A DNA stretch of 64,000 nucleotides, from the NCBI RefSeq assembly GCF_000317125.1, contig NC_019695.1, positions 2,096,336 to 2,160,335 of the forward strand, read 5' to 3'. Shown here in pieces: positions 18,901-63,802 of this stretch (positions are counted from its first letter, which is position 1; every line of letters begins with the position of its first letter). Below the pieces are notes generated by a model. That model did no database searches, had not been told where the DNA came from, and was given only the letters and a program-made list of their open reading frames with translations. This DNA comes from Chroococcidiopsis thermalis PCC 7203 (GTDB taxonomy: Bacteria; Cyanobacteriota; Cyanobacteriia; Cyanobacteriales; Chroococcidiopsidaceae). Both the position numbers and the translations under genes were made by a program.

Positions 18901-18975
18901 ATTTTAAGTATTTCACAACTGCTATGAAAACAAGTCTTTTTTTATACAAAATTTCAAAATTGGGAAATTTGAAAG

Positions 18976-19009: not shown

Positions 19010-19028
19010 TACAAGAGCGGCTCCAATC

Positions 19029-43874: not shown

Positions 43875-43982
43875 TGGATTTTCTAAGTAATTTTATCCAG
43901 ATAATTTCACAAAATCACTGATTGTTAATAGTCAATAGTTAATTGTTTGCAACTACAAACCATCAACGATTGACCATCAACA

Positions 43983-44429: not shown

Positions 44430-44535
44430 TGTTATTTATCATTTGTTATTGGTCATTGGTCATTGGTCAGTAGGTTGTAGCATTTCGTTATTACCTACTG
44501 ACGACAGACGATCTATAACTGTAACAAATCTGGGT

Positions 44536-45642: not shown

Positions 45643-45713
45643 TTTCAGCCTTCCTTATTGAAAAGTGAGTTTCGGTGAAAATTATTGTCAACTGGTTTGA
45701 CAAAATTTAGTAG

Positions 45714-46718
45714 TTATGCTTGGCTAATTACGTCAAAATAGCCCATGCATCCTGCTTCGGCGATCGCGTCTTGATGGGGGTGAAACATATACTTGCCCGT
45801 ATAGGGGTAAGCAAATTCTAAAATGTGCCGTTCGGCTGTCCCCATCGTGATGACATCTGATTCGTGGCTGGGGTTGAGAGTCATGCCCGTGGGATAAACC
45901 TTGAAGAAGTTAGCGTGAATGTGAAATGTCACCGCCGGATCTAATTCGATCATGTTCAGCAAATAAAGCCGAATGAGCTGATTTTGGTAAACAGGTATCG
46001 GATGCATGTGGTAGTAATCCGGCAACCCATTAAAGGCATACAGCTCGTTGTGCTTATCTTCATCCACATCAAAGCCACCCATAACTAAAACCATTTCATC
46101 CGCTGGCGATCGTCCTTGAGGCGGATCGATGATAAACATACCGTACAATCCCTTACCGATGTGACGGGTCACAGGCTCGGCGTGACAGTGGTAGAGGTGA
46201 ATGCCATATGGCTTTGCCTCAAATTCGTAAACTGTTGCCGCACCATGCCGAATCGGACGCACGCCATCTTCTTCTGTAGGATGAATGCCGTGAAAGTGCA
46301 TTGAATGAGAATGCCCGCCTTGATTGAGAAAGACAACACGGATGAAATCGCCTTGTTTGGCGCGTAAAGTTGGTCCTGGGATGCGATTGTTAAAATTCCA
46401 GGTGTTAAAAACAACAGCGCGATTGAGTTGAATCGTCGTGTTTTGAGCTGTAATCCGAAATTCGCGAATATTTCTGCCGTTTTCTCTTTTCAGCGTGCCG
46501 TAGTCGAAATCTCTGAGAACGGTCATGGGTTGCAAACCGCGCTCGTCTGATGGATCGCTAGGTGGTATGGGTGGCACGCGCGCGGCGGAATGACTTCGAG
46601 ATGCCAAGTGTAGCCCTACAGCAGCAGCACCGGCAGTTCCTGCACTTGCTAAACCCCATTTCAACAATTGGCGGCGGTTCCAAGTTTTTGATTTGCTCAG
46701 AAAAAATTTGTTCGGCAT
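45714..46718 (-). CDS. Tat-exported multicopper oxidase, probable ferroxidase
   Basis: 334 residues, short for a three-domain oxidase, so probably a two-domain form. The Tat-type leader has NRRQLLKWG followed by an Ala-rich helix (about 14-44). Copper sites: HSHSMHFHGIH near 140, HLYHCHAEPVTRHI near 182, HIHANFFKVY near 268, and MFHPHQDAIAEAGCMGYF at the end (HxH plus Cys and Met). Oxidases paired with FTR1 permeases oxidize Fe2+ for import. It is the first gene of the operon, 57 bp after a good promoter. Ferroxidase activity is inferred from the neighbours. Confidence 0.88.
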   Translation of the reverse strand: MPNKFFLSKSKTWNRRQLLKWGLASAGTAGAAAVGLHLASRSHSAARVPPIPPSDPSDERGLQPMTVLRDFDYGTLKRENGRNIREFRITAQNTTIQLNRAVVFNTWNFNNRIPGPTLRAKQGDFIRVVFLNQGGHSHSMHFHGIHPTEEDGVRPIRHGAATVYEFEAKPYGIHLYHCHAEPVTRHIGKGLYGMFIIDPPQGRSPADEMVLVMGGFDVDEDKHNELYAFNGLPDYYHMHPIPVYQNQLIRLYLLNMIELDPAVTFHIHANFFKVYPTGMTLNPSHESDVITMGTAERHILEFAYPYTGKYMFHPHQDAIAEAGCMGYFDVISQA

Positions 46719-46781
46719 GATATCGCCAGCGTAGCGGCGGAATCTTTTGAGAAATATTCGCAGATAATTTTCTGACCCTCT

Positions 46782-46810
46782 AGTATAGTTTTAGAGAAAA
46801 TTACTGTCAA
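46782..46810 (-). promoter_or_regulatory. Sigma70-type promoter of the iron-oxidase/FTR1 operon
   Basis: On the minus strand TTGACA (46805-46810), exactly 17 bp, then TATACT (46782-46787). The -10 ends about 64 bp before the multicopper oxidase ATG. The flanking DNA is AT-rich, and an imperfect dyad GAAAATTAT/GAATATTTC just downstream could take a repressor such as Fur. Confidence 0.7.
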
Positions 46811-46882
46811 TAAAATAGTGAAAATTTTTGATACTTGAGATAGATGTATACTGACTTTTTGTAGAGTAAGGAAAGTCAGTTA

Positions 46883-47656
46883 TCAGTGAAGAAAGGGAGC
46901 ATCTTCCAAATTACAGTAGGGACGACTGTAGCTAAGTGGTGGTTCGAGGGCGTGTTCTAGTAAGAATTTGGCATCACCCATGACTCGTTCGGTTGTACCG
47001 TCGTAAACCACTTGACCCTGACTCAAAACCACGGTGCGATCGCATAAATCTAAAGCTAAGTCTAAGTCGTGGGTGGCAACGAGTTGAGTAATCGGCAGAG
47101 ATTTGAGCAATTCGATCGATCGGCGGCGAGAACGAGGATCGAGTTGAGCTGAGGGTTCGTCTAGCACTAAAATCTGGGGTTGCATAGCCAAAACACCCGC
47201 GATCGCAATTCTTTTTTTCTCTCCTCCTGAGAGGTTCTCCGTACTGCGATGTCCGTACCATTCTGGATCGATGTTTACATGTGCCATCGCTTGCAAAACT
47301 CGTTTATGCAATTCTTCTCCCCGCAAACCCAAATTCATCGGACCAAAAGCTATATCTTCCCAAACTGTGGGCATAAATATTTGATCGTCAGGATTTTGAA
47401 ATACTAGCCCGACAAAATTCCGAATTAATTGTAAATTTTCAGGCTGCACAACCCACTCTCCTACCATCACCCTCCCTTCTTGAGGCAGAATAATTCCGTT
47501 TAAGTGTAACTGTAATGTCGATTTTCCCGAACCATTCGCCCCAATTAAGGCAACTCGCTCGCCAGATGCGATCGCCAAATTCACTTTCCTGAGTGCCTGC
47601 GTACCATCAGGGTAGGCATAACTGAGATTTTCTACAAGGATCGGGTTGTGATGCAT
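46883..47656 (-). CDS. cbiO: ECF transporter ATP-binding protein CbiO (cobalt/nickel)
   Basis: 257 residues, one ABC ATPase domain: Walker A GANGSGKSTL near 38, Q-loop VFQNPDDQIF near 84, signature LSGGEKKRIAIAG near 139, Walker B ILVLDEPSAQLD, and the switch His in VATHDLDLAL. The Q-loop sequence QNPDDQ is typical of energy-coupling-factor ATPases. It powers metal uptake with CbiM and CbiQ encoded upstream. It is the last gene of the operon. Confidence 0.92.
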   Translation of the reverse strand: MHHNPILVENLSYAYPDGTQALRKVNLAIASGERVALIGANGSGKSTLQLHLNGIILPQEGRVMVGEWVVQPENLQLIRNFVGLVFQNPDDQIFMPTVWEDIAFGPMNLGLRGEELHKRVLQAMAHVNIDPEWYGHRSTENLSGGEKKRIAIAGVLAMQPQILVLDEPSAQLDPRSRRRSIELLKSLPITQLVATHDLDLALDLCDRTVVLSQGQVVYDGTTERVMGDAKFLLEHALEPPLSYSRPYCNLEDAPFLH

Positions 47657-47763
47657 TTTAACTAGAGCCGAGAAGAGAGAGTCGCAACGCAGTTACCAAG
47701 TCGTAATTCGTAATTCGTAAGTCGTAATTCGTAAGTCACTGATAACTGATAACCGATCGCCAG

Positions 47764-48546
47764 TCACTTTCTAAATAAATAAACACTTTGTCCTGCTAGC
47801 ATCACAATTAAAGTTAGCGCTAAAGCGACAATGTCGCGTCTTCCTGCTGAGGGGATTTTTTCAACTGGAAATGCTCCTCGATAACCGCGCGATAACATAG
47901 CATGATGAATTCGTTCGCCGCGATCGTAAGTACGAATGAATAGAGAACCAATCGTATTTCCAATAACTAATCGCTGCCAGTATCTATTAGTCATTAAGTT
48001 ACGACAGGCTGCTGCTCGTCGCATCGCGTTGAATTCACCTATCAATACACCTAAATAGCGATACATAGAAGCAATAGTTGCGACGAGTAAAGGTGGAGTA
48101 CGCAACTCTAATAACCCATTTAACAAAGCTGGCACTGATGTCGTTAAAGTCAGTAAATTTAACATCATGAGCGATAGCAACGCCTTCAGCGTGACGCTAC
48201 CCAATACAGTTAATCCTGTAGTGGTGATTCGTAAAAATCCCCATGTCCAAATAACTTCGCCTCCATCCCGGAACAAAGTCCCGAGTAAAACTACACTTAC
48301 AAAGGACAATTCCACGGCTATGCGTTTGAGCAGTACGGGTAAAGTAATGCGAGTGAGAAATAATAAGCTAATAACGGCTATGCCGTAAATTCCCCACGTC
48401 CACCAGTGTCCGTTGGGAGTCAAGACAATGGCAAAAACCATCAGTAAAACACACAAAATGCGAGTGCGTGGTGCAAGGGCGTGCCAAACAGTACTTTTGT
48501 GGCTATCAATATCTAGCTGAAATGCCCCAATATGTAATAGCGTCAT
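47764..48546 (-). CDS. cbiQ: ECF transporter transmembrane protein CbiQ
   Basis: 260 residues, about five or six helices. It carries the T-component coupling motifs with Ala-Arg-Gly character: FNAMRRAAACRN near 175 and ERIHHAMLSRGYRG near 213. CbiQ links the CbiO ATPase to the substrate-binding CbiM. It sits between the PDGLE gene and cbiO, with about 107-118 bp gaps filled by short repeats (GTAATTCGTAAGTCGT, TTGGTCATTGGTCATT). Confidence 0.9.
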   Translation of the reverse strand: MTLLHIGAFQLDIDSHKSTVWHALAPRTRILCVLLMVFAIVLTPNGHWWTWGIYGIAVISLLFLTRITLPVLLKRIAVELSFVSVVLLGTLFRDGGEVIWTWGFLRITTTGLTVLGSVTLKALLSLMMLNLLTLTTSVPALLNGLLELRTPPLLVATIASMYRYLGVLIGEFNAMRRAAACRNLMTNRYWQRLVIGNTIGSLFIRTYDRGERIHHAMLSRGYRGAFPVEKIPSAGRRDIVALALTLIVMLAGQSVYLFRK

Positions 48547-48664
48547 TGGTCATTGGTTATTAGTCATTGGTCATTGGTCATTGTCATTTGTGAGTAGCTG
48601 GACTCTTTTCTAGCCACCAGCCACTGGTTCCACCAGCCACTAGTCACTGATAACTGACAACTGC

Positions 48665-49015
48665 TTACCGATCGCCTTCCTCGGAGGAGCTAGACTCACC
48701 ACGGACAACTATTTTCCCGATTCCCCAGGCTAAGCCGAAAGTAGCTAGCGTACCGACTAAACCAGCTATGGGGGTTGCTATTCCTTCAGGAACTCCTCGC
48801 AGGGCATATTCATCGAAAATGGAGTAAAAAGGTAACTTGCTAGCTGGGGCATCCTCTGCGGCTTTGTCTTCAAATTTAAGGTCTTGGGAAACTCTGTCTA
48901 AGCCGTCGGGATCTTGACTGGCAAAGGGAGAGAGGAAAACGGCAACGATGAGGGCAATTCCCAATCCAGCGATCGCAAAAGCACGGTTACGCGATCGCGT
49001 CAAATTATTACTCAT
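48665..49015 (-). CDS. PDGLE-domain protein (CbiN/NikN-like subunit)
   Basis: 116 residues, two membrane helices (about 11-30 and 80-103) with a periplasmic loop. The loop begins SQDPDGLDRVSQDL, a PDGL(E/D) signature, and contains LPFYSIFDEYALRG, as in PDGLE subunits of cobalt/nickel ECF transporters. It probably stands in for CbiN next to CbiM. The last motif residue is Asp instead of Glu. Confidence 0.85.
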   Translation of the reverse strand: MSNNLTRSRNRAFAIAGLGIALIVAVFLSPFASQDPDGLDRVSQDLKFEDKAAEDAPASKLPFYSIFDEYALRGVPEGIATPIAGLVGTLATFGLAWGIGKIVVRGESSSSEEGDR

Positions 49016-49118
49016 ACGGTAGTCTCGCTAAAATCAGTTCCAAAGCTTTTCAAAATCGAGAGGGACACGAGATAAATGTCTGCTTTTGACTTTCGACTTT
49101 TGACTTTTGACTTTTTCC

Positions 49119-49871
49119 CTAGCTCCCAACTCCTATTCTGTTTCTTGGCGATACAGCCCGACGGGGTGGATCGTAAAACATATCGGGGCGAGTTCGCCAG
49201 ATGAAGACAAGTGCTACAACTGTAATTGCGGCTTCACCAATCCCAATGAGGACGTGCCATGTTGCCATAGCTCCGATTGCGACTGCTAAGGGAACGGTTC
49301 CAGAGATAGCAAGTTGAATCGCGCAAATAATCGCGGCAATCATGACACTTGCCCAAGCCGCGATTGCTGCTCCTACAGCCATCCCTGATAATTTATTTCT
49401 ACCAATGGCAAAGCGAATTGCTTTGTAAAGGTAGTAACCGGCAAACGTACCGATCAGACCCATATTGAAGATGTTGGCTCCTAATACTGTCAAGCCTCCA
49501 TCTTGAAACACCACCGCTTGGACGATGAATACGACTGTCATCACTAGCGTTCCCGCCCAAGGACCTAAAAGCGCTCCTGCTAGAGTACCTCCCAGCAAAT
49601 GACCGGATGTACCTCCTGGAATGGGAAAGTTGATCATCTGTGCGGCGAAAATAAATGCAGCGCAAACGCCCATTAGAGGCACTGCCTTTTCCTGGTAGTC
49701 TGCTTGCACGCGATTTAGAGATATAGCGATCAGGGCGATCGCCAGTATCCAGGTAACAGCAATTACGGGTAGGTTTAAAAAGCCATCTGGGATATGCAGC
49801 GCTAGATATGGCTGTATTGAATGATACAGCCAACCAGAAGAAAGAGCTTGCATCAATGGAACGATTGGCAT
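49119..49871 (-). CDS. cbiM: ECF transporter substrate-binding membrane protein CbiM
   Basis: 250 residues, about seven helices. CbiM signatures: the metal-site start MHIPDGFL appears here as ALHIPDGFLN at residue 27, then NFPIPGGTSGHLLGGTLAGALLGPW near 72, and FQDGGLTVLGANIFNMG near 121. In CbiM/NikM the N-terminal Met-His coordinates the metal. Here the annotated start puts about 26 residues before that His and the Met is replaced by Leu, so either the real start differs or the chain is processed. No cobalamin riboswitch is visible upstream. Cobalt versus nickel cannot be told. Confidence 0.88.
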   Translation of the reverse strand: MPIVPLMQALSSGWLYHSIQPYLALHIPDGFLNLPVIAVTWILAIALIAISLNRVQADYQEKAVPLMGVCAAFIFAAQMINFPIPGGTSGHLLGGTLAGALLGPWAGTLVMTVVFIVQAVVFQDGGLTVLGANIFNMGLIGTFAGYYLYKAIRFAIGRNKLSGMAVGAAIAAWASVMIAAIICAIQLAISGTVPLAVAIGAMATWHVLIGIGEAAITVVALVFIWRTRPDMFYDPPRRAVSPRNRIGVGS

Positions 49872-50155: not shown

Positions 50156-52921
50156 TCAGTTGCCCACAGCTTTCTCAATGCAAATTTTCAACTTCTCTGC
50201 CAAAAGTTTAGATGCCATGATAGAAGTATGATTCCCTGGAATATTAAAAACTTCAACTCCATCTCTGGCAATGCTACTCCAACCTAACCTGGCATCTACT
50301 CGATGTCCTGGGGGAGTTTCTCCAGCTTTAAAGACAGTAATTTTTCCTGCATATGGCTGAGCATTGTAAGTCTTTTGGACTTTGCTATAAATCTCCTCTA
50401 AACTTCTCAGATTTGTTGATATAACATCATCCATTTCCTCAAGCTGAGTTGATGGCGTAAGGAATGCCCAGGAAGAACGCTGTAGAATATACTTACTGAT
50501 TTGAGCTAACTTCTGTTCCAAAAAGCTAGGGGCTGAAAAATGTCCCGGATCTGAAAAAATAGGATCTGATTTCTGCATATGGACTTCTGAGAAAAAGGCA
50601 AGCTTCTTCTCTCGATCTAATGTCTCTGCTCTAGCTTTAGATTGAAGCAGAACTTTTCCAACTGCCCCTAAAACTGTCTGAAGCTCGCTCAATAAAATCT
50701 TAGGTTGCGATCGCGTTTTAAGCAAGTAAGCAGGCAGCATATGCTGCCGAAGATAATCAACAGAAGATAGGAATCGCGGTAAAGGAGGAAGTAATGTAAT
50801 TGCATCTGGACCATAAGTGTCAAACAAAGCTAGCAAAATTACTTCTTGTCCCTGTTGGCGCAGCTGTTGCGCCATTTCAAGTGCAATATTGCCACCATTG
50901 GACAATCCTCCTAGCATATAGGGTCCTTCGGGTTGAACGGTTTGAATTTCACGAATGTAGTCAGCAGCAATACTCTCAAAACTCAAGTGTACGGGTCGAT
51001 TTCCATCTAAACCCCTCGCTTGCAGTCCATATACAGGTTGGTCGGCTCCTAGATTTCGTGCGACATCACGATAAATCAACACATTGAAACCAGCACCATG
51101 TACGCAAAAAAGCGGTAGTTTCTTAAAGTCGCCAGCTTGAATAGTAACTAGAGGAGACCAAGAAACAGTTTCTTCAGCACGTTGAACAACATCAGCTAAT
51201 TGGCAAATAGTTGGTGCTTGAAATAGAACGGATAGCGGTAAGTTTTTCCCAAATTGCTTTTCCATTTCAGCAAACAGTTTCACGGCTAAGAGAGAATGAC
51301 CGCCTAACTCAAAAAAGTTGTCGTAAATGCCAATTTGCGGATGATTAAGAATTTCTGACCATACTGCGATCAGTTTCTTTTCTATCTCTGTGGTAGGAGC
51401 TACAAATTGTCTGTTGGAATTCTGTGTCGCAGCTAATTCGTCTTTTAAATTCTCATGAAATTGAGTACAATCGATTGTTTCAGGAAGTACGATATCGGCA
51501 ATTTTCAGCTCTTGGTTTTCAGTTACGCTTTCTAGCAGCGCTTGCAGATTTTGAATAATTTGTTTGATGGTAGATGTTTCAAATAATGCTGATTTGTACT
51601 CCAGCTTTCCAAAAATAGCATCCTTGCCGCTATCTGTGATATCTAAGCTCAGCTCCATTCGAGTCAAACCTAGTTCCACTGGGAAATCTCGCACCTGAAG
51701 ATCGGGTAGATCGAGATTTTGAGCCGTAGTACTATCTCTTAGCAGCAGCAAGATTTGAAATTGAGGAATACTTGCTAGAGATGCAGATAAGCGCTGGAAG
51801 GGTAAATCTTGATAGCTATAGGCATCAAGCGTTGTTTCTCGAACTTTTGTTAAAACTTCACTAAAGCTCAAATCGCTGGAAAAATTCGTTCGTAGAAGTA
51901 GATTGTTAGAAAAATTTCCCACTAGTTTCTCGACTTCTCTACGGTTGCGATTTGACATAAGCGTGCCGATGCTAATGTCGTTTTCTAACGTACAGCGATG
52001 TAAAATGAGCTGAAATAAAGCCACAAACGCCATGAAAGATGTAACGCCTTGCTGACGACATAACTCTCTTAATTTATCGGATAAAGTTGAGGAAAACTCA
52101 AATTTTTCACATCCTGCATCAAGTGTTGCAAATTGGCGACTTTGATAAATGGGCAATTTTAATTGTGTAGGTGCGCCGCTGAGTTGCTGTTTCCAGTAAG
52201 TAGTTTGCGGTTCAAATATTGCATCAGAAAACCATTGTCGTTGCCAAACTGCAAAGTCAGGATATTGGATATTTGGTTCTAGAAGAGAAGAGCGATCGCC
52301 AACTAAAATTGCTTTGTATAAAGTCGCTAACTCTTGTAGTAAGAATCTGAAGGACAATCCATCGGTAGCAAACTGGTGCGTCACCAACAATGCTAAAAAC
52401 TCTTGTTCTCCAAGGCAAAATACTATAGCTCGAAAAAGTACATCTTGTGATAAGTCAAATGGTTGTCGTGCGATTGCTTCCGCCTGACTTGTAGCACGTT
52501 CTAACCTTTCTTCTTGAGAAAAATGACTGAGATCGATTATCTCCACCCAAGGTTTGAAGGTAGTCATCACTGTTTGAACTAGTTGGCGATCGCGTACCGT
52601 ACACGTAGTTCGGAAAATCTCATTGCGCTCGATCAGAAGATGTACGCTTTTTTCAAAAACTTGTAAGTTAAGATTTCCAGAAATCTGAAAAGCTACAGGT
52701 ACGTTATCAACAAATGTATCTGGAGAAAACTGGGCAATAGTCCAAATTCTTTCTTGAGAATAGGACAGTGGAATTAGCTCCGATCCCATTCGTTTTGGGA
52801 TGGCAAACTGAGCCAAATCTTCACCTTGTTTTTTTAGTAGTAGTTCCAATAACTGACGTTGTTCTGTTGATAATTCGACTAAACTTTGAAAAATATTACG
52901 TTCTGTAATGAATGTTGCCAT
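50156..52921 (-). CDS. NRPS: condensation (HQxxxDG) - PCP - thioesterase, no adenylation domain
   Basis: 921 residues, ATG 52921 after AGGTAAAACA. The condensation domain spans about 45-460; its active-site motif reads VTHQFATDG, so the second (catalytic) His of HHxxxDG is Gln. A PCP follows (FFELGGHSLLAV, about 545), then a type I thioesterase (about 600-920) with the nucleophile in GGLSNGG near 672 and the final His in PGNHTSIM near 898. There is no A domain, so the PCP must be loaded from elsewhere. The TE suggests product release for the neighbouring rightward NRPS genes. The altered C motif suggests a non-condensing or altered role. Codirectional with, and 69 bp after, the DUF362 gene. 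Confidence 0.9.
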   Translation of the reverse strand: MATFITERNIFQSLVELSTEQRQLLELLLKKQGEDLAQFAIPKRMGSELIPLSYSQERIWTIAQFSPDTFVDNVPVAFQISGNLNLQVFEKSVHLLIERNEIFRTTCTVRDRQLVQTVMTTFKPWVEIIDLSHFSQEERLERATSQAEAIARQPFDLSQDVLFRAIVFCLGEQEFLALLVTHQFATDGLSFRFLLQELATLYKAILVGDRSSLLEPNIQYPDFAVWQRQWFSDAIFEPQTTYWKQQLSGAPTQLKLPIYQSRQFATLDAGCEKFEFSSTLSDKLRELCRQQGVTSFMAFVALFQLILHRCTLENDISIGTLMSNRNRREVEKLVGNFSNNLLLRTNFSSDLSFSEVLTKVRETTLDAYSYQDLPFQRLSASLASIPQFQILLLLRDSTTAQNLDLPDLQVRDFPVELGLTRMELSLDITDSGKDAIFGKLEYKSALFETSTIKQIIQNLQALLESVTENQELKIADIVLPETIDCTQFHENLKDELAATQNSNRQFVAPTTEIEKKLIAVWSEILNHPQIGIYDNFFELGGHSLLAVKLFAEMEKQFGKNLPLSVLFQAPTICQLADVVQRAEETVSWSPLVTIQAGDFKKLPLFCVHGAGFNVLIYRDVARNLGADQPVYGLQARGLDGNRPVHLSFESIAADYIREIQTVQPEGPYMLGGLSNGGNIALEMAQQLRQQGQEVILLALFDTYGPDAITLLPPLPRFLSSVDYLRQHMLPAYLLKTRSQPKILLSELQTVLGAVGKVLLQSKARAETLDREKKLAFFSEVHMQKSDPIFSDPGHFSAPSFLEQKLAQISKYILQRSSWAFLTPSTQLEEMDDVISTNLRSLEEIYSKVQKTYNAQPYAGKITVFKAGETPPGHRVDARLGWSSIARDGVEVFNIPGNHTSIMASKLLAEKLKICIEKAVGN

Positions 52922-52990: not shown

Positions 52991-54067
52991 TTAAGTCATA
53001 ATATATGGACGAATTCCATCAGCGATTTTTTGACTAGCTGCGTCGGCTGTAATTAATTCAATCTGCTCTGAATTAGCAGCTCCTAAGCCTAATTCTATAG
53101 CTCTACGAATTTGTTCTAAATTCCAAATTGAGCCTTGAGCTACTTCTGGTGTTGTACCGAGCGATCGCAATATTCCTAAAGCAACGACATCAACTGCAAC
53201 CCGATCTGTGCCAGCTAAAATCACATTTGCAGCGACTTTATCGCCAGCTTCAGGTCCACCTTTGACAAAGGCTTCGACTCCATCCATTAAGACAAGACTT
53301 GGTTGGTAAACAGAGTTAATTTCTGCAATCATCAACTGCATATACTTTGATGTATGCAAATCGTTCATATAGTTGAAGCGATCGCCAGGAACGTACTTTG
53401 CTACCATACCCACAGTATTTTTAAGCGAAAGAGTATAGCGAGCGCCACCGTGAGTTTTCAGACAACACATATTCACAACTGCTTCTGCATCCAAAATCGG
53501 ACGAGCAAAGGCAAAACCTTGTTGCCAGTGAGTTCCCTCAGCAGAGAAATACTGCCAATCTTTAATACTCAACTCGTCTAAGACAATTGCATTAAGTCCG
53601 TAGCGATCTGCTAATTTAAACACTCCCTTAGCTTCCATCGCTTGCCGCGTCTGCGCCATACCAGAGCGATCGCCGATACTAATTTGTCCTGCTCCAGCAT
53701 TTTGTAATTCTTGTATTAGAGCTTCTAGCATTTTGGTATCTGTTGCGGCTGGAGCGGGATCGGCAGTGTTGTAGTTGGGTTTGAGGAAAATGCGCTTTCC
53801 TTTTATACCATCTGGTTGCAACAGATCGAGAGCGCGGCGTGTTCCGTTGACTCGATCTTCGCTATATACGAGTACGACTTTACCAATTTCATTTGATAGT
53901 GATAACGGTGCAACTTTCTTCGCATCTGCATACTTAGCTTTAGTAGCTTTTAACGAAGTTTTGACGGCATAAAAAGTAGGAGGAAATATTGCTGCTCCAA
54001 CTGCTAGTCCAGTCAGTTGCAGAATACTGCGCCTCTTATGCTTGAGGTTAGGAAATTTATATGACAT
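52991..54067 (-). CDS. DUF362 protein with Tat-like signal
   Basis: 358 residues. The leader HKRRSILQLTGLAVGAAIF (residues 10-28) fits a twin-arginine signal, suggesting export of a folded, cofactor-bearing protein. DUF362 signatures: KRIFLKPNYNTADPAPAATD near 90, ISIGDRSGMAQTRQAM near 128, VVNMCCLKTHGGARYTLSLKNTVG near 192, and DGVEAFVKGGPEAGDK near 262. The family's biochemical role is unsettled. It diverges from the formyltransferase-NRPS gene and precedes the C-PCP-TE gene, so it may be part of the biosynthetic cluster. Confidence 0.82.
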   Translation of the reverse strand: MSYKFPNLKHKRRSILQLTGLAVGAAIFPPTFYAVKTSLKATKAKYADAKKVAPLSLSNEIGKVVLVYSEDRVNGTRRALDLLQPDGIKGKRIFLKPNYNTADPAPAATDTKMLEALIQELQNAGAGQISIGDRSGMAQTRQAMEAKGVFKLADRYGLNAIVLDELSIKDWQYFSAEGTHWQQGFAFARPILDAEAVVNMCCLKTHGGARYTLSLKNTVGMVAKYVPGDRFNYMNDLHTSKYMQLMIAEINSVYQPSLVLMDGVEAFVKGGPEAGDKVAANVILAGTDRVAVDVVALGILRSLGTTPEVAQGSIWNLEQIRRAIELGLGAANSEQIELITADAASQKIADGIRPYIMT

Positions 54068-54785: not shown

Positions 54786-57700
54786 ATGTCTAGTTTCTCT
54801 TGTTTTGTTGTAGGTAATGGTGTCCTTGCAGTAAAGTGCTTAGAAATTTTATTAAAAACAGAACATAAAGTCCTTGGAGTTTATTCAGCAGATAACTCGC
54901 TAGTTAAGTTTGCAGAGGAACTTGGCATTCCTCATGCTCCTTCTCTACCTACCTTTGAAGATCGGCTACTTAGTACTGAGTACGACTACCTTTTTAGTAT
55001 TAACAACGTCTGGTGGATCGTACCACCAAACGTCATTACCCAGGCACGAAAGGCAACAATCAACTTTCACGATTCACTTTTACCAAAGTATGCGGGGTTA
55101 TATGCAACATCTTGGGCGTTGCTTCATGGCGAACGGCAACACGGTATCACCTGGCATGAAGTTATCTCTGACATTGACGCTGGACGCATTCTCAAACAGC
55201 AAATAGTACCTATTGAACCCACTGATACAGCATTCGATCTCAATGCTCGCTGCTTGGATGCCGCGATCGCAACCTTTGACGAATTCATAGAGGAACTGGC
55301 AACCGATCGGTTAAAGCCATTGCCACAGGATCGATCGCAACAGAGTTATTTTGGTTCTAGCGATCGCCCAGCAGCAGCTTGCGTTTTGGCGTTTGACACG
55401 AGCAGTAAAGAGCTTTGTAATTTAGTGCGGGCATTAGATTTTGGTCCAATCCGCAATCCACTAGGCTTACCCAAACTCTGTTTACCAGATGGAGTCGTTG
55501 CTGTGGGAGCTGCTGATGCAGTAGTAACCTCCCACGCAAGTGTGGGGCAGGTGTTAGAACTCGATACAGATGGAATTTGCATTGCCACTAGGGATGGTGC
55601 AGTACGGCTGAGCCGTCTGACATCACTTGAGGGAAAACCCCTCACGTTAGAAAACTTGCAGCAATCTTACGGCGTGCGTGTTGGCGTTATTTTGCCCGAA
55701 CTCAATGCCGAACTGAGAGATGCGATCGGTCAGCGTAATGCGGCGATCGCTCGTCACGAACGGTCGTGGGTCAAGCAACTGGCACAAATGACTCCGTTTC
55801 AACATCCCTATTTACAGGTTGGAGCGCTGAATACGTCGTCCGATCGTTTGCGCCGATACCCGATTTTGCTGCCAGCCAAACGGGTAGAACCGCGATCGCT
55901 ACTAACCATGTTCGCAGCTTATTGCACGCGATTGGCAACAGAGTCAGAGTTTGACTTGGGGCTGCAAACCGCAGCACAGCGCAGTATTGCCCCAGAAATT
56001 TTTGCTCAACAAGTGCCGATTCGCGTTCAGTCTGTTGCTGAGGAACCATTTACCGATTTTCAGAAACGCTTTGAAGCAGAATTAGATCGTGCGTCTCGTC
56101 TAGGTAGTTACACCTTAGATATCTTTGCCCGCCATTCAGAATTACAGCAGCTTTCCCAAGATGCCCTCCAAGTAACAATTGTTCTTGTGGAGAACCCCAA
56201 TCGACTGGAATGGGCTGATTTAGGAGCAACAATTGCCCTGGTTGCCTATGAAGATGGCAGCTTGCCGGAATTGATTCACGCTGGAGCGATCGATGAAGTA
56301 AATAGTGCGGCGATCGCCCAGCAACTTCGGAGTCTGATCGATGCCTGTGTCGAACATCCCGAACAATTACTGCACCAACTCCCCTTACTCTCCGCTACAG
56401 AACTACACCAAATTGTGGTGGAGTGGAACCAAACAGTAAAACCATACTCTAGAGATTGCTGCATCCATCAGTTGTTCGAGCAGCAAGTCACCCTCCATCC
56501 CGACGCGATCGCCGTTGCTTTTGAGGAGCAACAGTTAACCTACGGAGAGTTGAATGCCAAAGCCAATCAACTAGCTCGTTATTTACAACAACAAGGCGTA
56601 GGTCCCGACGTTTTAGTAGGGTTGCACGTAGAGCGATCGCTCTTAATGATGGTAGCGTTGCTGGGAATTCACAAGGCAGGCGGTGCTTACGTTCCTCTCG
56701 ATCCAGAATTTCCACGGGATCGGCTCGGCTTCATGTTGCAAGACTCTCAAGCTCCGGTTATTGTCACCCAGCAACAATTAATGAGCAATTTGGTTGTCGA
56801 GCCTGGTGTCAGTGTTATCCCCATCGATACGATGTGGGACGAGATCGAGCAACAGGCGATCGCCAATCCTAATAGTGGAGTCAAGCCGGAAAACCTGAGC
56901 TACGCGATCTATACCTCTGGTTCTACAGGTAAGCCCAAGGGTGTGATGGTAGAACACCGTAACGCAGTCAATTTCTTTACGGGGATGGATGGAGTTATCG
57001 AGCATAATCCTCCTGGAGTCTGGTTAGCGGTCACGAGTTTGTCCTTTGATATTTCCGTGTTAGAGCTATTTTGGACGTTGGCACGGGGGTTTAAGGTCGT
57101 CATTTACAATGCCAAGAAAGAGCGTACCGCTGCCAAGCCGTCATCGCTCCAGAATACAAACAAGGCGATCGATTTCAGTCTGTTTTATTTCTCTAGCTAC
57201 GAAAATGGTGGGGATACTGCCGCTAAATACCGTCTATTGACTGAAGGCGCTAAGTTTGGCGATACGAACGGATTTAAAGCAGTCTGGACTCCAGAACGGC
57301 ACTTCCATGCCTTCGGGGGGCTATTTCCCAACCCTGCCGTTACCAGTGCAGCGATCGCGGCAACGACGAAACAGATTCAGATTCGGGCAGGTAGCTGTGT
57401 TTCTCCACTGCATAGCTCGGTACGAATTGCCGAAGATTGGTCTATTGTGGATAATTTGTCAGGCGGTCGGGTGGGGATTTCCTTCGCTGCTGGCTGGCAA
57501 CCAAATGATTTTGTCCTGCGCCCGGAAACCTTTGAGAATCGTAAGGACATTATGTTCCAGCAGATTGAGGAGGTGCGATCGCTCTGGCGTGGGGAATCTG
57601 TAACTTATCCGAATGGAAAAGGTGAAGCCGTAGCCGTTCAAACGTTGCCACGCCCGATTCAACCCGAACTTCCAGTCTGGATTACTGCCGCAGGCAATCC

Positions 57701-59441
57701 AGAAACATTTCGCATGGCAGGTGCTAAAGGTTTTCACCTTCTGACTCACTTATTGGGGCAGAGCCTAGAAGAATTAGCAGAAAAAATTGCCCTTTACCGA
57801 CAAGCGTGGGTAGAAAACGGACATTCCGGTCAGGGGACTGTAACCTTGATGCTCCATACCTTTGTAGGTCAGAGCGATGATGCCGTCCGCGAAATTGTGC
57901 GTCAACCGATGCGGCAATATCTCGCCACTTCTCTCGATTTAATCAAGCAAGCTGCATGGGCTTTTCCCACTTTCAAGCAGAAAACCACGAACGACAAAGG
58001 ACAATTTGCTATATCCCACTTATCCGAGCGAGATATGGATGAGGTGCTGGATTTTTCCTTTGAACGCTACTTTGAAACCAGTGGTTTGTTCGGGACTGTA
58101 GAAACTTGTTTGCAGATAGTCGATCGCATCAAAGGCATTGATGTGGATGAAATTGCTTGTTTGATTGACTACGGCATCGACACCGATCTAGTCTTGTCCC
58201 AACTGCCACTACTCGCTCGCGTCAAGGCGCAGTCCAATCTGCCTATGACTGAAGTTGCAACACAGAATAATTCTGTGGCAGGACTGATCGAGTGTCATCA
58301 AGTGACACACCTGCAATGCACTCCATCAATGGCAGGTTTGTTGATTGCCGATACCGCTACCCGCGCCGCTATGAAACAGTTACGTCAGATGATGGTTGGC
58401 GGCGAAGCTTTGACCGAAGCCTTGGCGCTCCAACTCCAGCAGATCGTGGCGGGACAAGTTCACAATATGTACGGTCCTACAGAAACTGCCATTTGGTCGG
58501 CAACTCATACGCTGACGCAAGTAAATGGAATCGTTCCCGTCGGTCGTCCGATCGCTAACACTGAGCTGTATATTTTAGATCGGAACGGACAACCCGTTCC
58601 CGTGGGAGTTGCAGGCGAACTGCTGATTGGGGGCGAAGGTGTGACTCGCGGTTATCTGAATCGACCGGAGTTAACTCAAGAGCGGTTTATTCCCCATCCT
58701 TTGAGCCAAAATCCGGCAGACCGTCTCTACCGCACAGGAGATTTGGTACGCTACCGCAGAGATGGCAATGTAGAATTCCTCGGTCGTATCGACTTTCAAG
58801 TGAAAGTGCGGGGCTATCGCATCGAATTAGGCGAAATTGAGACAATTTTAAGTCGTCACGAGGCAGTTCGAGAAGCAGCGATCGTGGTTCGCGAAGATGT
58901 ACCGGGTGACAAGCGCCTAGTTGCCTACGTGTTACCACAGCCAGGACAACAGCCTGCTAACTCACAGTTGCGAGAATACTTACTCGCTCGATTGCCCGAA
59001 TACATGGTTCCCTCCAACTTTGTCGTGCTAGAGGCTTTTCCCCTCACGCCAAACAATAAGGTCGATCGCAAGGCACTGCCTGCGCCGACGACGGTGCAGT
59101 TGGATAGGGCGATCGAGCAGACAGCATCTCAAAACCAGGTCGAGCAAACCCTAATGGCGATTTGGCAAAACTTACTTCAGGTGTCTGAAATTGGTACGGG
59201 AGATAACTTCTTCAGTTTGGGAGGAAACTCCTTGATCGCCGTGTCATTGATGGGAACGATCCGCTCGACGTTTAGCGTTGACTTACCGCTAATTAATTTA
59301 TTTCAATTTCCGACTGTCGGTGGTATGGCTCGACAGATCGAACAAGCTCAAGCTATGCAAGTCAATCTAGATGACATGGAAGACACGATCGCGTATTTGG
59401 CGCAATTGTCTGATGAAGAAGTGATGGCGCTGCTGAAATAA
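54786..59441 (+). CDS. NRPS: formyltransferase - half condensation - adenylation with inserted luciferase-like monooxygenase - PCP
   Basis: 1551 residues. A formyltransferase domain (1-320) has the catalytic triad Asn93, His95 (INFHDSLLPKYAG) and Asp131 (SDIDAGRIL). Residues about 350-540 resemble only the C-terminal lobe of a condensation domain; no HHxxxDG. The adenylation domain (about 555-1440) has TSGSTGKPKG near 708. It is interrupted between motifs A4 (SFDISVLELFW) and A5 (NMYGPTETAIW, about 1227) by a MupA/Atu3671-type flavin monooxygenase (about 794-1145; IDFSLFYFSSYENGGD, GRVGISFAAGWQPNDF). My pocket reading is D-I-L-Q-M-G-M-I-W, glycine-like. A PCP follows (SLGGNSLIAV, about 1480). 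It probably starts a peptide with an N-formylated, oxygenated glycine-like unit. RBS AGGAAA precedes the ATG. Confidence 0.9.
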   Translation: MSSFSCFVVGNGVLAVKCLEILLKTEHKVLGVYSADNSLVKFAEELGIPHAPSLPTFEDRLLSTEYDYLFSINNVWWIVPPNVITQARKATINFHDSLLPKYAGLYATSWALLHGERQHGITWHEVISDIDAGRILKQQIVPIEPTDTAFDLNARCLDAAIATFDEFIEELATDRLKPLPQDRSQQSYFGSSDRPAAACVLAFDTSSKELCNLVRALDFGPIRNPLGLPKLCLPDGVVAVGAADAVVTSHASVGQVLELDTDGICIATRDGAVRLSRLTSLEGKPLTLENLQQSYGVRVGVILPELNAELRDAIGQRNAAIARHERSWVKQLAQMTPFQHPYLQVGALNTSSDRLRRYPILLPAKRVEPRSLLTMFAAYCTRLATESEFDLGLQTAAQRSIAPEIFAQQVPIRVQSVAEEPFTDFQKRFEAELDRASRLGSYTLDIFARHSELQQLSQDALQVTIVLVENPNRLEWADLGATIALVAYEDGSLPELIHAGAIDEVNSAAIAQQLRSLIDACVEHPEQLLHQLPLLSATELHQIVVEWNQTVKPYSRDCCIHQLFEQQVTLHPDAIAVAFEEQQLTYGELNAKANQLARYLQQQGVGPDVLVGLHVERSLLMMVALLGIHKAGGAYVPLDPEFPRDRLGFMLQDSQAPVIVTQQQLMSNLVVEPGVSVIPIDTMWDEIEQQAIANPNSGVKPENLSYAIYTSGSTGKPKGVMVEHRNAVNFFTGMDGVIEHNPPGVWLAVTSLSFDISVLELFWTLARGFKVVIYNAKKERTAAKPSSLQNTNKAIDFSLFYFSSYENGGDTAAKYRLLTEGAKFGDTNGFKAVWTPERHFHAFGGLFPNPAVTSAAIAATTKQIQIRAGSCVSPLHSSVRIAEDWSIVDNLSGGRVGISFAAGWQPNDFVLRPETFENRKDIMFQQIEEVRSLWRGESVTYPNGKGEAVAVQTLPRPIQPELPVWITAAGNPETFRMAGAKGFHLLTHLLGQSLEELAEKIALYRQAWVENGHSGQGTVTLMLHTFVGQSDDAVREIVRQPMRQYLATSLDLIKQAAWAFPTFKQKTTNDKGQFAISHLSERDMDEVLDFSFERYFETSGLFGTVETCLQIVDRIKGIDVDEIACLIDYGIDTDLVLSQLPLLARVKAQSNLPMTEVATQNNSVAGLIECHQVTHLQCTPSMAGLLIADTATRAAMKQLRQMMVGGEALTEALALQLQQIVAGQVHNMYGPTETAIWSATHTLTQVNGIVPVGRPIANTELYILDRNGQPVPVGVAGELLIGGEGVTRGYLNRPELTQERFIPHPLSQNPADRLYRTGDLVRYRRDGNVEFLGRIDFQVKVRGYRIELGEIETILSRHEAVREAAIVVREDVPGDKRLVAYVLPQPGQQPANSQLREYLLARLPEYMVPSNFVVLEAFPLTPNNKVDRKALPAPTTVQLDRAIEQTASQNQVEQTLMAIWQNLLQVSEIGTGDNFFSLGGNSLIAVSLMGTIRSTFSVDLPLINLFQFPTVGGMARQIEQAQAMQVNLDDMEDTIAYLAQLSDEEVMALLK

Positions 59442-59542: not shown

Positions 59543-62500
59543 ATGACTGAAATTATAAGCCAAAAGTTAAATTCCCAAGCGCACGTTGACAAACTCCAAG
59601 CTCTTTCACCCGAACGAAAAGCTTTGCTAGCTCAGTTAATTCGCGAGAAAAAGGTAGGTGTAAAACAAGAGCGGCAACCGCAGCGAGCAGTATTTAACCT
59701 ACCAACGATTACTGCTGCCCCTGACGAACGATTTCAGCCCTTTCCATTGACTGGATTGCAACAAGCTTATTGGGTTGGGCGCAGTGGTGAAGTAGAAATG
59801 GGACAGGTTGCCAGCCACAGCTATGTAGAATTGGAAGGCAACTTCGATCTGGAACGCTTGACTCAAGCTTGGCAACGACTAATAGATCGTCATGACATGA
59901 TGCGGGCGATCGTTCTGCCGGATGGAACTCAACAGGTCTTGGAAAATGTGCCTTCCTATCAGTTTCGGATGCTCGATTTGCGGGGACGGGATGCGGAAAC
60001 AGTCAACGCTCAGCTAAAAGACGTGCGCGATCGGATGTCGCATCAAATTCTTCCCAGCCATAAGTATCCCTTATTTGATATTCAAGCAACTTTACTAGAC
60101 GATGGACGGACTCGGATTCACGTTAGTTTGGATGCTTTGATCTTTGATGGCTGGAGTATTGCAATTACTTATAAAGAATGGGCGGCGCTTTACCACAATC
60201 CTGAAACTCAACTAGAGTCTTTAGAAATTAGCTTCCGCGATTATGTCTTGGCAGAGCGATCGCTGTCGAATTCCGACGAGTATAGGCGATCGCAAGATTA
60301 CTGGCGCAAACGAATTGACTCTTTACCTTTGGGACCAGATCTGCCCCTTGCCAAACAGCCGTCTGCTCTCACAAGTGGTAGGTTTGTGCGTCGAGAAGGG
60401 GTAGTAGAAGCTTCTATTTGGCAGCGAGTTAAGGCGCGGGCGACTCAATTAGGCATCACCGCACCAGGAATTTTGGCAGCAGCCTACGCCGAAGTTCTGA
60501 CGTTATGGAATAAAGAACGACATTTCTGTATCAATGTGCCAAGTTTCAATCGCCTGCCACTACACTCGCAGGTGAATCGCTTGATTGGAGAATCTGCCTC
60601 ATTTACCGTGCTGGAAGTTGACAATACGGGAGATGCTTCCTTTGCCGAGCGATCGCAACGCCTACAGGCGCAACTTTGGAGCGACATAGACCATCGTTTC
60701 TTTAACGGGGTCGAAGTCCTGCGGGAACTTGCCGTTGCTCAAAATCGACTCTCTGGTTCGCTGATGCCAGTTGTATTTACTGCAATTCCAGCAGATGAAA
60801 CCGGACAAAGTACCTATGCTACAGTGCAAGCAGAGGCTCTGGGTGAGGTGGTATTTGCAATTAACCAAACTTCTCAAGTGTGGTTAGACAACCACGTTTT
60901 TGAGCATAATGGTGCGCTTTATTGCCACTGGGATACCGTGGAAGAACTTTTTCCTGAAGGACTATCCCAAAATCTCTTAGATGCTTTTATCCAATTGCTC
61001 CATCTGCTAGGTACTGATGAAAATCTCTGGCAGCAGAGTTGGTCGGAAGTCATGCGGCGGGTGATGGTGGCAACAGGTCAGCAGTTGGTAGCTGCCGGGG
61101 ACGAGCAGCCAATGCCGGAAATCTTGCTTCACGAGCTGATTGCGGCTCAAGTGCCTCAGCGTCTAGACCAAGCGGCGGTCGTTACTACTCAGAAAACTCT
61201 AACTTACCAAGAATTGTATTCCTTGGCAAACCGTTGGGGGCGGCATTTGCGGAATTTAGGAGCGCAACCAAACCAACCGATCGCAATTGTGATGGAAAAG
61301 GGTTGGGAGCAAGTGGTAGCTGCTCTGGGCATATTACACGCTGGTGCTGCTTACCTTCCGATTGATGCCACAGTCGGAAAAGAACGGCTTGACTACCTGC
61401 TGGAGAATGGTAAAGCTGAAATCGTCCTGACTCAATCTTGGTTAGACGATCGCCTGGAATGGAGCGATCGCGTGCAGCGCCTCTGCGTCGATCGCGAAAA
61501 CTTGGAAAATATTGACGATCGCCCCTTAGAACCGATTCAAACACCTGACGATTTAGCGTTTGTACTTTATACATCGGGTTCTACTGGCTTGCCAAAAGGA
61601 GTGATGATTCGCCATCGTGGGTTAGTGAATGCGGTTGTCAGCACTCAAAAGCAATTTGAGATTAATTCTGGCGATCGCATTTTAGGATTGACAGCTTTAC
61701 ATCACGATATGTCAATTTTTGACATATTTGGCGTGTTGGGTGCTGGAGGAACCTTAATTATCCCCGATGCCAGCGGACGACGCGACCCGTCCCATTGGTC
61801 GGATCTGTGCATGAAGCATCAGATTACGCTCTGGAACTCGGTTCCGGCAATGATGGATATGTTCTTAGAGTATGCAGGCGATGCGCGTGGCGCAAGCTTC
61901 GCTTCACGCGCGGATGTCATTCCATCGACATTGCGGCTGGCATTTCTAGGTGGAGATTGGATTCCGTTAACGATTCCCAAACGTCTTGAGGCGCTGGTAG
62001 AAGGAGCGAAAGTAGTCAGCGTCGGCGGTCCTACAGAAACAACGCTGTGGAATATTTGGTATCCGATTGAGGAGTTTGACCCGAACTGGAAAAGCATTCC
62101 CTACGGACGACCAATTTCCAATACTCGCTACTACATTTTCAACGATGCTTTGGTGGAATGTCCCGCTTGGGTGTCGGGGGAGATGTGCGTTGCTGGCGTG
62201 GGAGTTGCCAAAGGTTACTGGCACGATCCAGAGAAAACCAACGCCAAATTTATTTTGCATCCCCGTACTGGCGAACGAATTTATCGAACTGGAGATATGG
62301 GACGCTTCCGCCCCGATGGGACGATCGAGTTCATGGGACGGGTCGATTTTCAAGTTAAAATCAACGGTCAGCGGATCGAGCTAGGGGAAATCGAGTCAAC
62401 TTTACAACAACACGCAGGTGTTAATTCGGCGATCGCGACGACTTACGACCAGAAAGGCAAAAAGCTTTTAGTAGCATACGTCATTCTGGCGAAAGAGTCA

Positions 62501-63802
62501 GAGCTAAATACTGACGAACTGCGCTTGTTTTTACGCGGTAAGTTACCAGAACATATGGTTCCTGCTGCTTTCGTAATGCTAGAACAGTTTCCTTTGACTC
62601 CTAATGGCAAAGTCGATCGCAAAGCGCTACCCGCACCTTTTGCAGCAGATGCTACCCCTGCTAAAAGTACAACTCAAAAGCAGTCTTCAGGGATTCAGGC
62701 AAAAGTCAGTCGAATTGTGTGTAAAGTATTGCAGTTAGAAAATGTCGATTTGGACGCGAATTTATTGAGTGTAGGGGCGAATTCGCTCGATATGGTGAGA
62801 ATTGGCAACCAACTAGAAAAGGAATTTAAGAATCGTCCCCGGATTGATGAATTGTTCCGCTTGCAGTCAATTCAAGCATTAGTTGATTATTACGAGCAGC
62901 AAGAAAGTAAATCGGTTTCTAGCAATACAGATGACAGTCTGTTAGGAAATAAGCTACTGTCTTCCTACAGGATTATTCTCGATCCTGTGGAGCGGGAGAA
63001 ATTTAAGAAATCGCGCCCAGGAGTCCGGCGAGATCTGAAAGAGACACCTGCAATTCAATTAGAAAGACCTGTTGTTGATGAGGAGTTACAGAAAAAATAT
63101 CGCGATCGCAGCAGTTATCGTAAGTTCTTGTTAAAATCAATTCCATTTGAGAATTTCAGCCTATTTTTAAGCTGTTTATCTCAAATTATCCTAGACGGTC
63201 AATCTAAGTTTCTCTATGCCTCCCCTGGCGGTTTGAATCCAACTCAAGTTTACTTGCATGTCAAACCCGGACGCATTGAAAATGTGCCAGCTGGTGTTTA
63301 CTACTATCATCCAGAGGAACATCAACTCGTTGTTTTGACATCTAATGTCGATATTGACAGAGGAGTCCATATTCCATTCATTAATACACCAATGTTTGAT
63401 GAATGTGCCTTCTCCATCTTCTTCATTGCCGATTTAGATGCGATTGGACCTGGCTATGGCGAGCGAGGAATTCACTTCGTTACCTTGGAATCGGGAATTA
63501 TGGCACATCAGCTAGAGGTTTCGGCTCCAAGTTACGGAATTGGGATGTGTCAAGTTGGTAGTATTGCTTTTGAACGGATTCGTCCCTGGTTTAAGCTCAA
63601 GGACACCCATATCCTGATTCACTCCACGCTAGGAGGTTATATTGACTCTAGCCGCTCTAGCCGACCCGATCTGAGCAATACTTCGGGACAAACACCGGAG
63701 AAAATGGCAGTTGAATTGTTGGAACGAATCGAGTCTCTTTCTCCCAGTGAAGTTAAGGGATTGCTGGAGGCTTATCAACAGCTAGAAGGGAGCAGGGAAT
63801 AA
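59543..63802 (+). CDS. NRPS: heterocyclization - adenylation - PCP - SagB-type oxidase
   Basis: 1419 residues. The heterocyclization domain (about 60-480) has DALIFDGWS near 198, a full DxxxxDxxS motif. The A domain (about 510-1030; TSGSTGLPKG near 675) has a pocket I read as D-M-F-N-F-G-V-L-W, similar to but not identical with Cys codes, so Cys, Ser or Thr remain open. The PCP has VGANSLDMV near 1077. The C-terminal domain (about 1165-1395; RSSYRKF, GLNPTQVYLH, GVYYYHPEEHQLV, GIGMCQVGSIAFERI) is a SagB/nitroreductase-like FMN oxidase. Cy plus this oxidase makes thiazole or oxazole rings from Cys/Ser/Thr. A short palindromic repeat may have added about a dozen residues (DARGASFASRAD, near 782) to the A domain. 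No TE, so the assembly line continues. Confidence 0.92.
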   Translation: MTEIISQKLNSQAHVDKLQALSPERKALLAQLIREKKVGVKQERQPQRAVFNLPTITAAPDERFQPFPLTGLQQAYWVGRSGEVEMGQVASHSYVELEGNFDLERLTQAWQRLIDRHDMMRAIVLPDGTQQVLENVPSYQFRMLDLRGRDAETVNAQLKDVRDRMSHQILPSHKYPLFDIQATLLDDGRTRIHVSLDALIFDGWSIAITYKEWAALYHNPETQLESLEISFRDYVLAERSLSNSDEYRRSQDYWRKRIDSLPLGPDLPLAKQPSALTSGRFVRREGVVEASIWQRVKARATQLGITAPGILAAAYAEVLTLWNKERHFCINVPSFNRLPLHSQVNRLIGESASFTVLEVDNTGDASFAERSQRLQAQLWSDIDHRFFNGVEVLRELAVAQNRLSGSLMPVVFTAIPADETGQSTYATVQAEALGEVVFAINQTSQVWLDNHVFEHNGALYCHWDTVEELFPEGLSQNLLDAFIQLLHLLGTDENLWQQSWSEVMRRVMVATGQQLVAAGDEQPMPEILLHELIAAQVPQRLDQAAVVTTQKTLTYQELYSLANRWGRHLRNLGAQPNQPIAIVMEKGWEQVVAALGILHAGAAYLPIDATVGKERLDYLLENGKAEIVLTQSWLDDRLEWSDRVQRLCVDRENLENIDDRPLEPIQTPDDLAFVLYTSGSTGLPKGVMIRHRGLVNAVVSTQKQFEINSGDRILGLTALHHDMSIFDIFGVLGAGGTLIIPDASGRRDPSHWSDLCMKHQITLWNSVPAMMDMFLEYAGDARGASFASRADVIPSTLRLAFLGGDWIPLTIPKRLEALVEGAKVVSVGGPTETTLWNIWYPIEEFDPNWKSIPYGRPISNTRYYIFNDALVECPAWVSGEMCVAGVGVAKGYWHDPEKTNAKFILHPRTGERIYRTGDMGRFRPDGTIEFMGRVDFQVKINGQRIELGEIESTLQQHAGVNSAIATTYDQKGKKLLVAYVILAKESELNTDELRLFLRGKLPEHMVPAAFVMLEQFPLTPNGKVDRKALPAPFAADATPAKSTTQKQSSGIQAKVSRIVCKVLQLENVDLDANLLSVGANSLDMVRIGNQLEKEFKNRPRIDELFRLQSIQALVDYYEQQESKSVSSNTDDSLLGNKLLSSYRIILDPVEREKFKKSRPGVRRDLKETPAIQLERPVVDEELQKKYRDRSSYRKFLLKSIPFENFSLFLSCLSQIILDGQSKFLYASPGGLNPTQVYLHVKPGRIENVPAGVYYYHPEEHQLVVLTSNVDIDRGVHIPFINTPMFDECAFSIFFIADLDAIGPGYGERGIHFVTLESGIMAHQLEVSAPSYGIGMCQVGSIAFERIRPWFKLKDTHILIHSTLGGYIDSSRSSRPDLSNTSGQTPEKMAVELLERIESLSPSEVKGLLEAYQQLEGSRE
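61883..61911. repeat. Palindromic repeat inside the Cy-A-PCP-Ox gene
   Basis: GCGCGTG and CACGCGC enclose AAGCTTCGCTT, itself a small hairpin. The translated segment interrupts a stretch of the adenylation domain between motifs A4 and A5, where other family members normally have a shorter loop. It looks like a repeat inserted in frame. Confidence 0.5.

Follow-up and report, generated by a model that had tools for sequence, protein, structure and literature searches.

Formyltransferase-bearing starters and monooxygenases inserted into adenylation (A) domains have both been described in nonribosomal peptide synthetases (NRPSs). LgrA, of linear gramicidin synthesis, carries an N-terminal formyltransferase (FT) with its catalytic triad kept, ahead of an A domain and a peptidyl carrier protein (PCP), and presumably has neither a half condensation (C) domain between FT and A nor a luciferase-like monooxygenase (LLM) within A. 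The starters of oxazolomycin (OzmO), conglobatin (CongA) and phthoxazolin (PtxE) are described as F-A(Gly)-PCP proteins in which N-formylglycyl-S-PCP precedes polyketide synthase (PKS) modules (PMC4504003, PMC4979870, PMC5764310); the available passages of these reports mention no LLM for them and assign the oxazoles to an OzmP/CongE/PtxD-type cyclodehydratase. A monooxygenase (MOX) within the glycine A domain is found in the myxothiazol and melithiazol systems, where it is reported to hydroxylate the glycine Cα, after which the N-Cα bond is lost and glyoxylate stays on the thiolation (T) domain, with release by a terminating thioesterase (TE) (PMC11342130). Here, we describe an NRPS of Chroococcidiopsis thermalis PCC 7203 that joins an FT, the C-terminal half of a C domain (C'), an A domain interrupted by an LLM, and a PCP. 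Its gene lies in a stretch of 64,000 nucleotides (NC_019695.1, G000:C1:2096336-2160335; hereafter the window) of a 6.7-Mb genome. Each of these parts is already known separately, but the literature that we searched, some of it accessible only in part, yielded no description of a protein that unites FT, half C and LLM, nor of its product.

The five parts are arranged as FT-C'-A[LLM]-PCP in a single open reading frame (ORF; Table 1). Pfam matches comprise Formyl_trans_N (aa 78-160), Formyl_trans_C (aa 200-294), AMP-binding in two stretches, Bac_luciferase (aa 800-1111), AMP-binding_C (aa 1350-1425) and PP-binding (aa 1454-1517). The two AMP-binding stretches are split by the LLM (aa 797-1147), which scores 511.7 bits with TIGR04020 against a cut-off of 244.45 and is inserted between motifs A4 and A5. 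The half C domain (about aa 306-545) falls under the Pfam Condensation cut-off (17.4 versus 30.6 bits), and 9 of the 24 sequences of its alignment, the window protein included, match PF00668 at E <= 0.01. When its profile was compared by hhalign with one built from 16 C domains of this genome, only columns 189-454 of 454 aligned (probability 98.9%, E 3.9e-17); because this alignment covers only the second half of the C-domain profile, the N-lobe that bears HHxxxDG is absent. With a triad-bearing FT upstream of A-PCP and no complete C domain, the protein has the sequence-level features of a formylating NRPS initiation module. The original prediction, made from the nucleotide sequence, had read the same domain order, the half C domain, the LLM insertion, a formylating starter role, an intact formyl triad and a glycine-like pocket, all of which our profile searches and alignments support. 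An FT of the LgrA type was rejected, since the closest PDB matches of the FT are sugar N-formyltransferases (62 bits) and LgrA follows at about 27 bits.

We take N93, H95 and D131 to be the FT triad, by comparison with E. coli FMT, and we take the numbering of the A-domain pocket, whose positions were picked by motif, to be that of GrsA. In an alignment of 47 sequences, consisting of the window protein and 46 relatives that each show this architecture within one ORF (a later tblastn recount added two), the three triad residues and the PCP Ser1482 are kept in 47/47. The window pocket reads DILQMGMIWK; seven of the ten pocket residues are invariant across the alignment, with slight variation at positions 299, 322 and 330, and the codes are distributed as DILQMGMIWK (28 sequences), DILQLGMIWK (13) and other close forms (6). 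Every one of the 47 LLM-bearing A domains has a Gly-type code, and many positions of the LLM do not vary among them. DILQLGMIWK, from which the window pocket differs at one position (9/10 residues identical), is the code that PMC12283262 lists for four MOX-bearing Gly A domains.

With a little less than even confidence, and largely by analogy, we favor a reading in which this protein starts a small NRPS line with a formylated glycine that is oxygenated at Cα by the LLM and passed on to a (methyl)oxazole with its formyl-amide nitrogen kept. Judging from the pocket, the A domain would load glycine onto the PCP; the FT would then formylate the amine of glycyl-S-PCP with formyl-tetrahydrofolate, as its intact triad, LgrA and the other glycine starters suggest. 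The half C domain, which lacks the catalytic lobe, may serve as a mere platform between FT and A. From what is described for its family, the inserted LLM would use reduced FMN and O2 to oxygenate Cα of N-formylglycyl-S-PCP. The oxidized acyl unit would pass to the next protein, a heterocyclization-A-PCP-oxidase (Cy-A-PCP-Ox) NRPS, whose Cy domain would join and cyclize it with a Thr/Ser-like residue and whose Ox domain would form the (methyl)oxazole, and a C-PCP-TE protein may end or transfer the product; these late steps are suggested by the domains present and by the conservation of the cassette. Speaking for this proposal are the domains and motifs, the triad and Ser in 47/47, the Gly pocket, the occurrence of the same cassette beside an A(LLM) gene in a second genome, and the gene order of an Ignavibacteriaceae locus, the last two of which are described below.

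The site and outcome of oxygenation depend on how far the MOX precedent reaches. The original prediction had allowed oxygenation at either the alpha carbon or the nitrogen, and the carbon gains from the description of A-inserted MOX as hydroxylating glycine Cα (PMC11342130), while the nitrogen drew no support. The same source describes loss of the N-Cα bond with glyoxylate left behind, and, together with the near-identity of the window pocket and the MOX-Gly code, this argues for a variant in which formamide leaves after Cα hydroxylation and glyoxylyl-S-PCP remains as the starter, the formyl group merely making an acyl-glycine substrate. We consider this variant unlikely, though it keeps appreciable weight: the formyl group would be spent on a leaving group, and an FT would be superfluous if free glycyl-S-PCP were what is oxidized, yet none of the aligned sequences has lost the triad, which is why we lean toward retention of the formyl-amide nitrogen. 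Moreover, FT-type LLMs fall in a clade of their own (support 0.938), apart from the non-FT, A-inserted LLMs of myxobacterial genomes, none of which is a named MtaG. The clade holds 47 rows labelled FT-type and 15 other A-inserted rows, several of which are the same genes re-fetched or orthologues; the one of these 15 that was checked (L223, from the genome G568 discussed below) lacks an FT. Because FT-type LLMs sit away from the myxobacterial ones, neither retention nor cleavage is secure. The window protein also differs from the myxobacterial systems in being a starter module with an FT.

The closest solved structure to the window LLM is PuwE (PDB 6ket, E 8.2e-113). The LLM of PuwE is described as flanked by PKS and NRPS modules instead of being embedded in an A domain, and its proposed substrate is a polyketide-derived acyl chain (PMC4219810). 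This raises the alternative that the LLM acts later, on a neighboring carrier-bound chain and not on the loaded glycine, or is only structural. A paralogue in the same genome, C'-A-PCP-TE, is in keeping with such a role since its A domain has stayed closely similar although it lacks the LLM. Identity to the two A halves of the window protein is 83% and 92% (75% and 79% over longer stretches), but window residues 784-1132, which lie 348 apart, correspond to 12 residues in the paralogue. About 336 residues have thus been deleted in frame, with a scar that consists of the linker and the last LLM residues. The paralogue of one congener (G393) has the same scar; the version in another (G392) shows no match to these A motifs and has lower identity. 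In an A-domain tree with the LLM columns removed, the paralogue groups beside the window protein and its G392 counterpart (0.998), inside the LLM-bearing rows. Because of this nesting, we take the LLM to have been lost from the paralogue, and a gain in the A domain was rejected. With so similar an A domain left in the paralogue, the LLM is probably unneeded for the A fold. However, the Gly-type code in all 47 LLM-bearing A domains and the many invariant LLM positions count against a late-acting or structural LLM, which we regard as improbable. The neighbors of the paralogue are sugar transferase, flippase-type, GT2 and O-antigen-ligase-type genes.

The proposal of Cα oxygenation with formyl retention also draws on the genes around the starter. 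Whereas the oxazoles of the OzmO, CongA and PtxE systems are assigned to a cyclodehydratase, the window line has Cy and Ox domains, and the pocket of its second module, DMFNFGVLWK, is listed among Thr-type codes in PMC12283262. A thiazole made from Cys by this module was considered and dropped, as the code is not of the DLYNLSLIWK-type for Cys. No further NRPS domain was found past 63802 in the 20 kb scanned from window position 62001. In the congener G392, the three NRPS genes are colinear with the window but no DUF362 ORF lies between them, and in G393 (L078) the cluster genes are in pieces, interrupted by several ORFs that look transposase-like by eye. DUF362 ORFs with 66-67% identity stand beside related genes in G568, a genome of another family in the same order, and at loci L049 and L080 of g11, a genus also of that order.

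G568 carries, co-directionally, C-A(LLM)-PCP, Cy-A-PCP-Ox (73% identity in Cy), DUF362 (66%) and C-PCP-TE genes, and its first and second pockets are those of the window, DILQMGMIWK and DMFNFGVLWK. In its LLM module the FT is missing and the C domain is complete (PF00668, 281 bits, HHxxxDG), and the alignment with the window starter begins at window residue 502 (70% identity). Because the cassette is retained in G568 although FT-C' gives way there to a full C domain, we infer that the four genes form one unit whose N-terminal part can be exchanged near the C-A linker. Glycosyltransferases flank the line, five at one end and one of the WecG type at the opposite end. In G568 (L251, L272, L273), a long PKS/NRPS line that includes a class-III aminotransferase ends in the same Cy-A-PCP-Ox, DUF362 and C-PCP-TE cassette among glycosyltransferases, and its product is perhaps a glycosylated peptide.

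Several observations weigh against our proposal. The pocket codes, read by motif, are predictions. With a C domain standing where the window has its FT, the rest of the cassette in G568 does not require formylation, and the separate clade of FT-type LLMs means that MOX chemistry may not carry over. In addition, C-PCP-TE, judged from its motif HQxxxDG, shows a conserved loss of the usual catalytic His (second His to Gln in 4/4 copies compared, from the window, G392, G393 and G568) and has no A domain of its own.

Table 1. Coordinates of the starter gene, its parts and the other features discussed. Positions are those of the window unless a contig or locus is given.
Feature	Position	Strand	Remarks
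Starter NRPS, FT-C'-A[LLM]-PCP	54786..59441	+	Single ORF, 1551 aa, ATG start
FT, N- and C-terminal parts	54786..55700	+	aa 1-305; PF00551/PF02911
FT triad codons	N93 55062-55064; H95 55068-55070; D131 55176-55178	+	
C-terminal lobe of C domain	55701..56420	+	aa 306-545; without HHxxxDG; hhalign
A domain, N-terminal part, past motif A4	56421..57140	+	aa 546-785; Pfam
LLM, between A4 and A5	57174..58226	+	aa 797-1147; TIGR04020
A domain, C-terminal part	58233..59090	+	aa 1150-1435; joins N-terminal part to give code DILQMGMIWK
PCP	59145..59336	+	aa 1454-1517; PP-binding; Ser1482 codon 59229-59231
Cy-A-PCP-Ox	59543..63802	+	Pfam; DxxxxD motif; SagB-type oxidase TIGR03605, 82.8 bits versus cut-off 78.4
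DUF362 protein	52991..54067	-	Pfam; divergent, upstream of starter gene
C-PCP-TE	50156..52921	-	921 aa; Pfam; divergent, upstream; C motif HQxxxDG
Paralogue C'-A-PCP-TE	G000:C1:2376436-2379996 (L046:6437-9997)		Same genome as window
Consecutive genes for FTR1, ferritin-like, HHH protein, multicopper oxidase, ABC ATPase (CbiO-like), CbiQ and CbiM	42900-49871	-	Order kept in G392 and G393
Consecutive TonB-dependent-receptor-type ORFs (three, of which two carry AMIN and plug domains) and TonB_C protein	12087-19859	-	
A-methyltransferase (MT)-PCP-thioester reductase NRPS	392-4816	-	1474 aa; listed with TTG start; no C domain found

The layout had been called unusual in the original prediction, a description that did not survive a wider search. 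A scan of named genomes with the FT alignment returned at least 565 relatives, although a scan with the whole protein had found none, and the best 80 were analyzed by tblastn. Of these, 48 carry an LLM behind the FT, both on one strand, and 24 have an A domain without LLM; 6 were undecided at a contig end, and in 2 an FT was found without an A domain. The LLM-type loci bear titles of, among others, cyanobacteria, Rhodobacteraceae, myxobacteria, Comamonadaceae, Chloroflexota, Acidobacteria, Planctomycetota, Ignavibacteria and Bacillota. On plasmids, at least 80% of the query was matched in one place in 17 records; among them are alphaproteobacterial proteins of the MupA/Atu3671 family, which match over the same stretch. 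Identity is 39.6-45.3%, and query coverage is 97-99% in 15 of these best 17 and 91% and 85% in the other two. The layout thus marks a widespread enzyme type and is not a one-off.

We compared the neighbors of the 48 LLM-type loci with those of the 24 formyl-NRPS loci without LLM and of 20 random regions drawn from four cyanobacterial genomes only. The reference proteins came from alphaproteobacterial, Deinococcus and g11 loci, the last of these labelled by eye or from the Pfam scan of a g11 locus, and counts may be too low in other groups because these are few lineages; nor are the 48 loci independent, as they include many Rhodobacteraceae and many close relatives. A type I PKS ketosynthase (KS) lies nearby in 36/48 LLM-type loci, 8/24 without LLM and 0/20 random regions; glycosyltransferase, sugar-transferase, flippase or export genes in 31/48, 3/24 and 0/20, counts that did not change when annotated references alone were used; and a phosphopantetheinyl transferase in 24/48, 0/24 and 0/20. 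Where the distance from FT to PKS was measured, the two were on the same strand and <=1.5 kb apart in 25/25 loci. Five PKSs that were scanned read KS-AT-KR-DH-ACP, with a TE hit in four. All five annotated alphaproteobacterial plasmid records (two Ruegeria, Aminobacter, Shinella and Paracoccus) have a type I PKS adjoining or near, amid polysaccharide genes; it is on the opposite strand in Aminobacter and Shinella, and the FT is annotated as a separate gene in Paracoccus. The Methylobacterium and Neorhizobium plasmid records carry no annotation. The Deinococcus match falls in two pieces over two genes, next to PKS and sugar genes.

The match in Nostoc C052 has no FT and follows type I PKS genes, with no glycosyltransferase annotated in the stretch examined. 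The cyanobacterial loci L092-L096 gave no PKS match and all five hold a hexapeptide-type gene, L092-L095 lying amid glycosyltransferase- or sugar-transferase-like genes; by Pfam, one g11 locus contains hexapeptide, KS III, SDR, AMP-ligase and carrier proteins. In the window itself, a single glycosyltransferase and a single GHL10 gene lie 12-15 kb from the starter gene. The partner of the MupA/Atu3671-family proteins is a one-module PKS in polysaccharide loci, whereas the partner of the window starter is Cy-A-PCP-Ox. It is possible, though on balance somewhat doubtful, that FT-C'-A[LLM]-PCP represents an old cross-phylum family that makes an oxidized formylglycine (or glyoxylyl) unit, usually with a one-module KS-AT-KR-DH-ACP-TE PKS as its partner and a product that decorates surface polysaccharides, and that it was redeployed for an oxazole-forming line in the cyanobacterial lineage to which the window belongs.

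In an Ignavibacteriaceae metagenome-assembled genome (L105:7931-14616), FT-A(LLM)-PCP is followed by a Cy-A protein (DLLNFD, truncated at the contig end), an order that parallels that of the window, and sugar-transferase-, DegT- and Wzc-like ORFs belong to the same locus. L057 and L144, the latter titled Tolypothrix brevis, have an FT, a methyltransferase-like stretch and an A domain within a 5030-aa ORF, an arrangement that we take to resemble tolytoxin-type starters.

The remaining element of the original prediction was that oxygenation at nitrogen by the LLM would give an N-formyl hydroxamate for iron binding, in accord with nearby iron genes. Multicopper oxidase, ferritin and FTR1 genes do lie 8-12 kb from the starter gene, TonB-receptor and TonB genes lie 35-43 kb away, and the order of the nearer set is conserved in two congeners. 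However, a neighborhood shared with two congeners alone does not show a functional link, and CbiM/Q/O-type (cobalt-transport-type) genes stand between the FTR1, ferritin-like and multicopper oxidase genes (42.9-46.7 kb) and the NRPS cluster. BLAST (E <= 1e-8) with the window TonB receptors, TonB, FTR1, ferritin and multicopper oxidase found homologues near 0/48 LLM-type loci, 1/24 without LLM and 1/20 random regions, a weak test of low power. The window contains no match with <=3 mismatches to what we take to be the E. coli Fur consensus, from which cyanobacterial sites may differ. Furthermore, the relatives are located in surface-sugar/PKS loci, and A-inserted MOX is described as acting on Cα (PMC11342130). 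The hydroxamate, which finds no support here, is in our view very improbable, and a siderophore was rejected as the principal explanation of the cluster. Elsewhere in the window, an A-MT-PCP-thioester reductase NRPS lies about 7-14 kb from the three TonB-receptor-type ORFs and 14 kb from the TonB gene, and it might be a better metallophore candidate than the starter protein.

The window genome offers a natural comparison of closely similar A domains with and without an LLM. Together, the paralogue, from which the LLM has been cut out, and G568, in which a full C domain replaces FT-C', mark natural cut-and-rejoin points in NRPS modules. The finding predicts a testable starter chemistry and, across many phyla, connects thiotemplate enzymes with surface-sugar loci.
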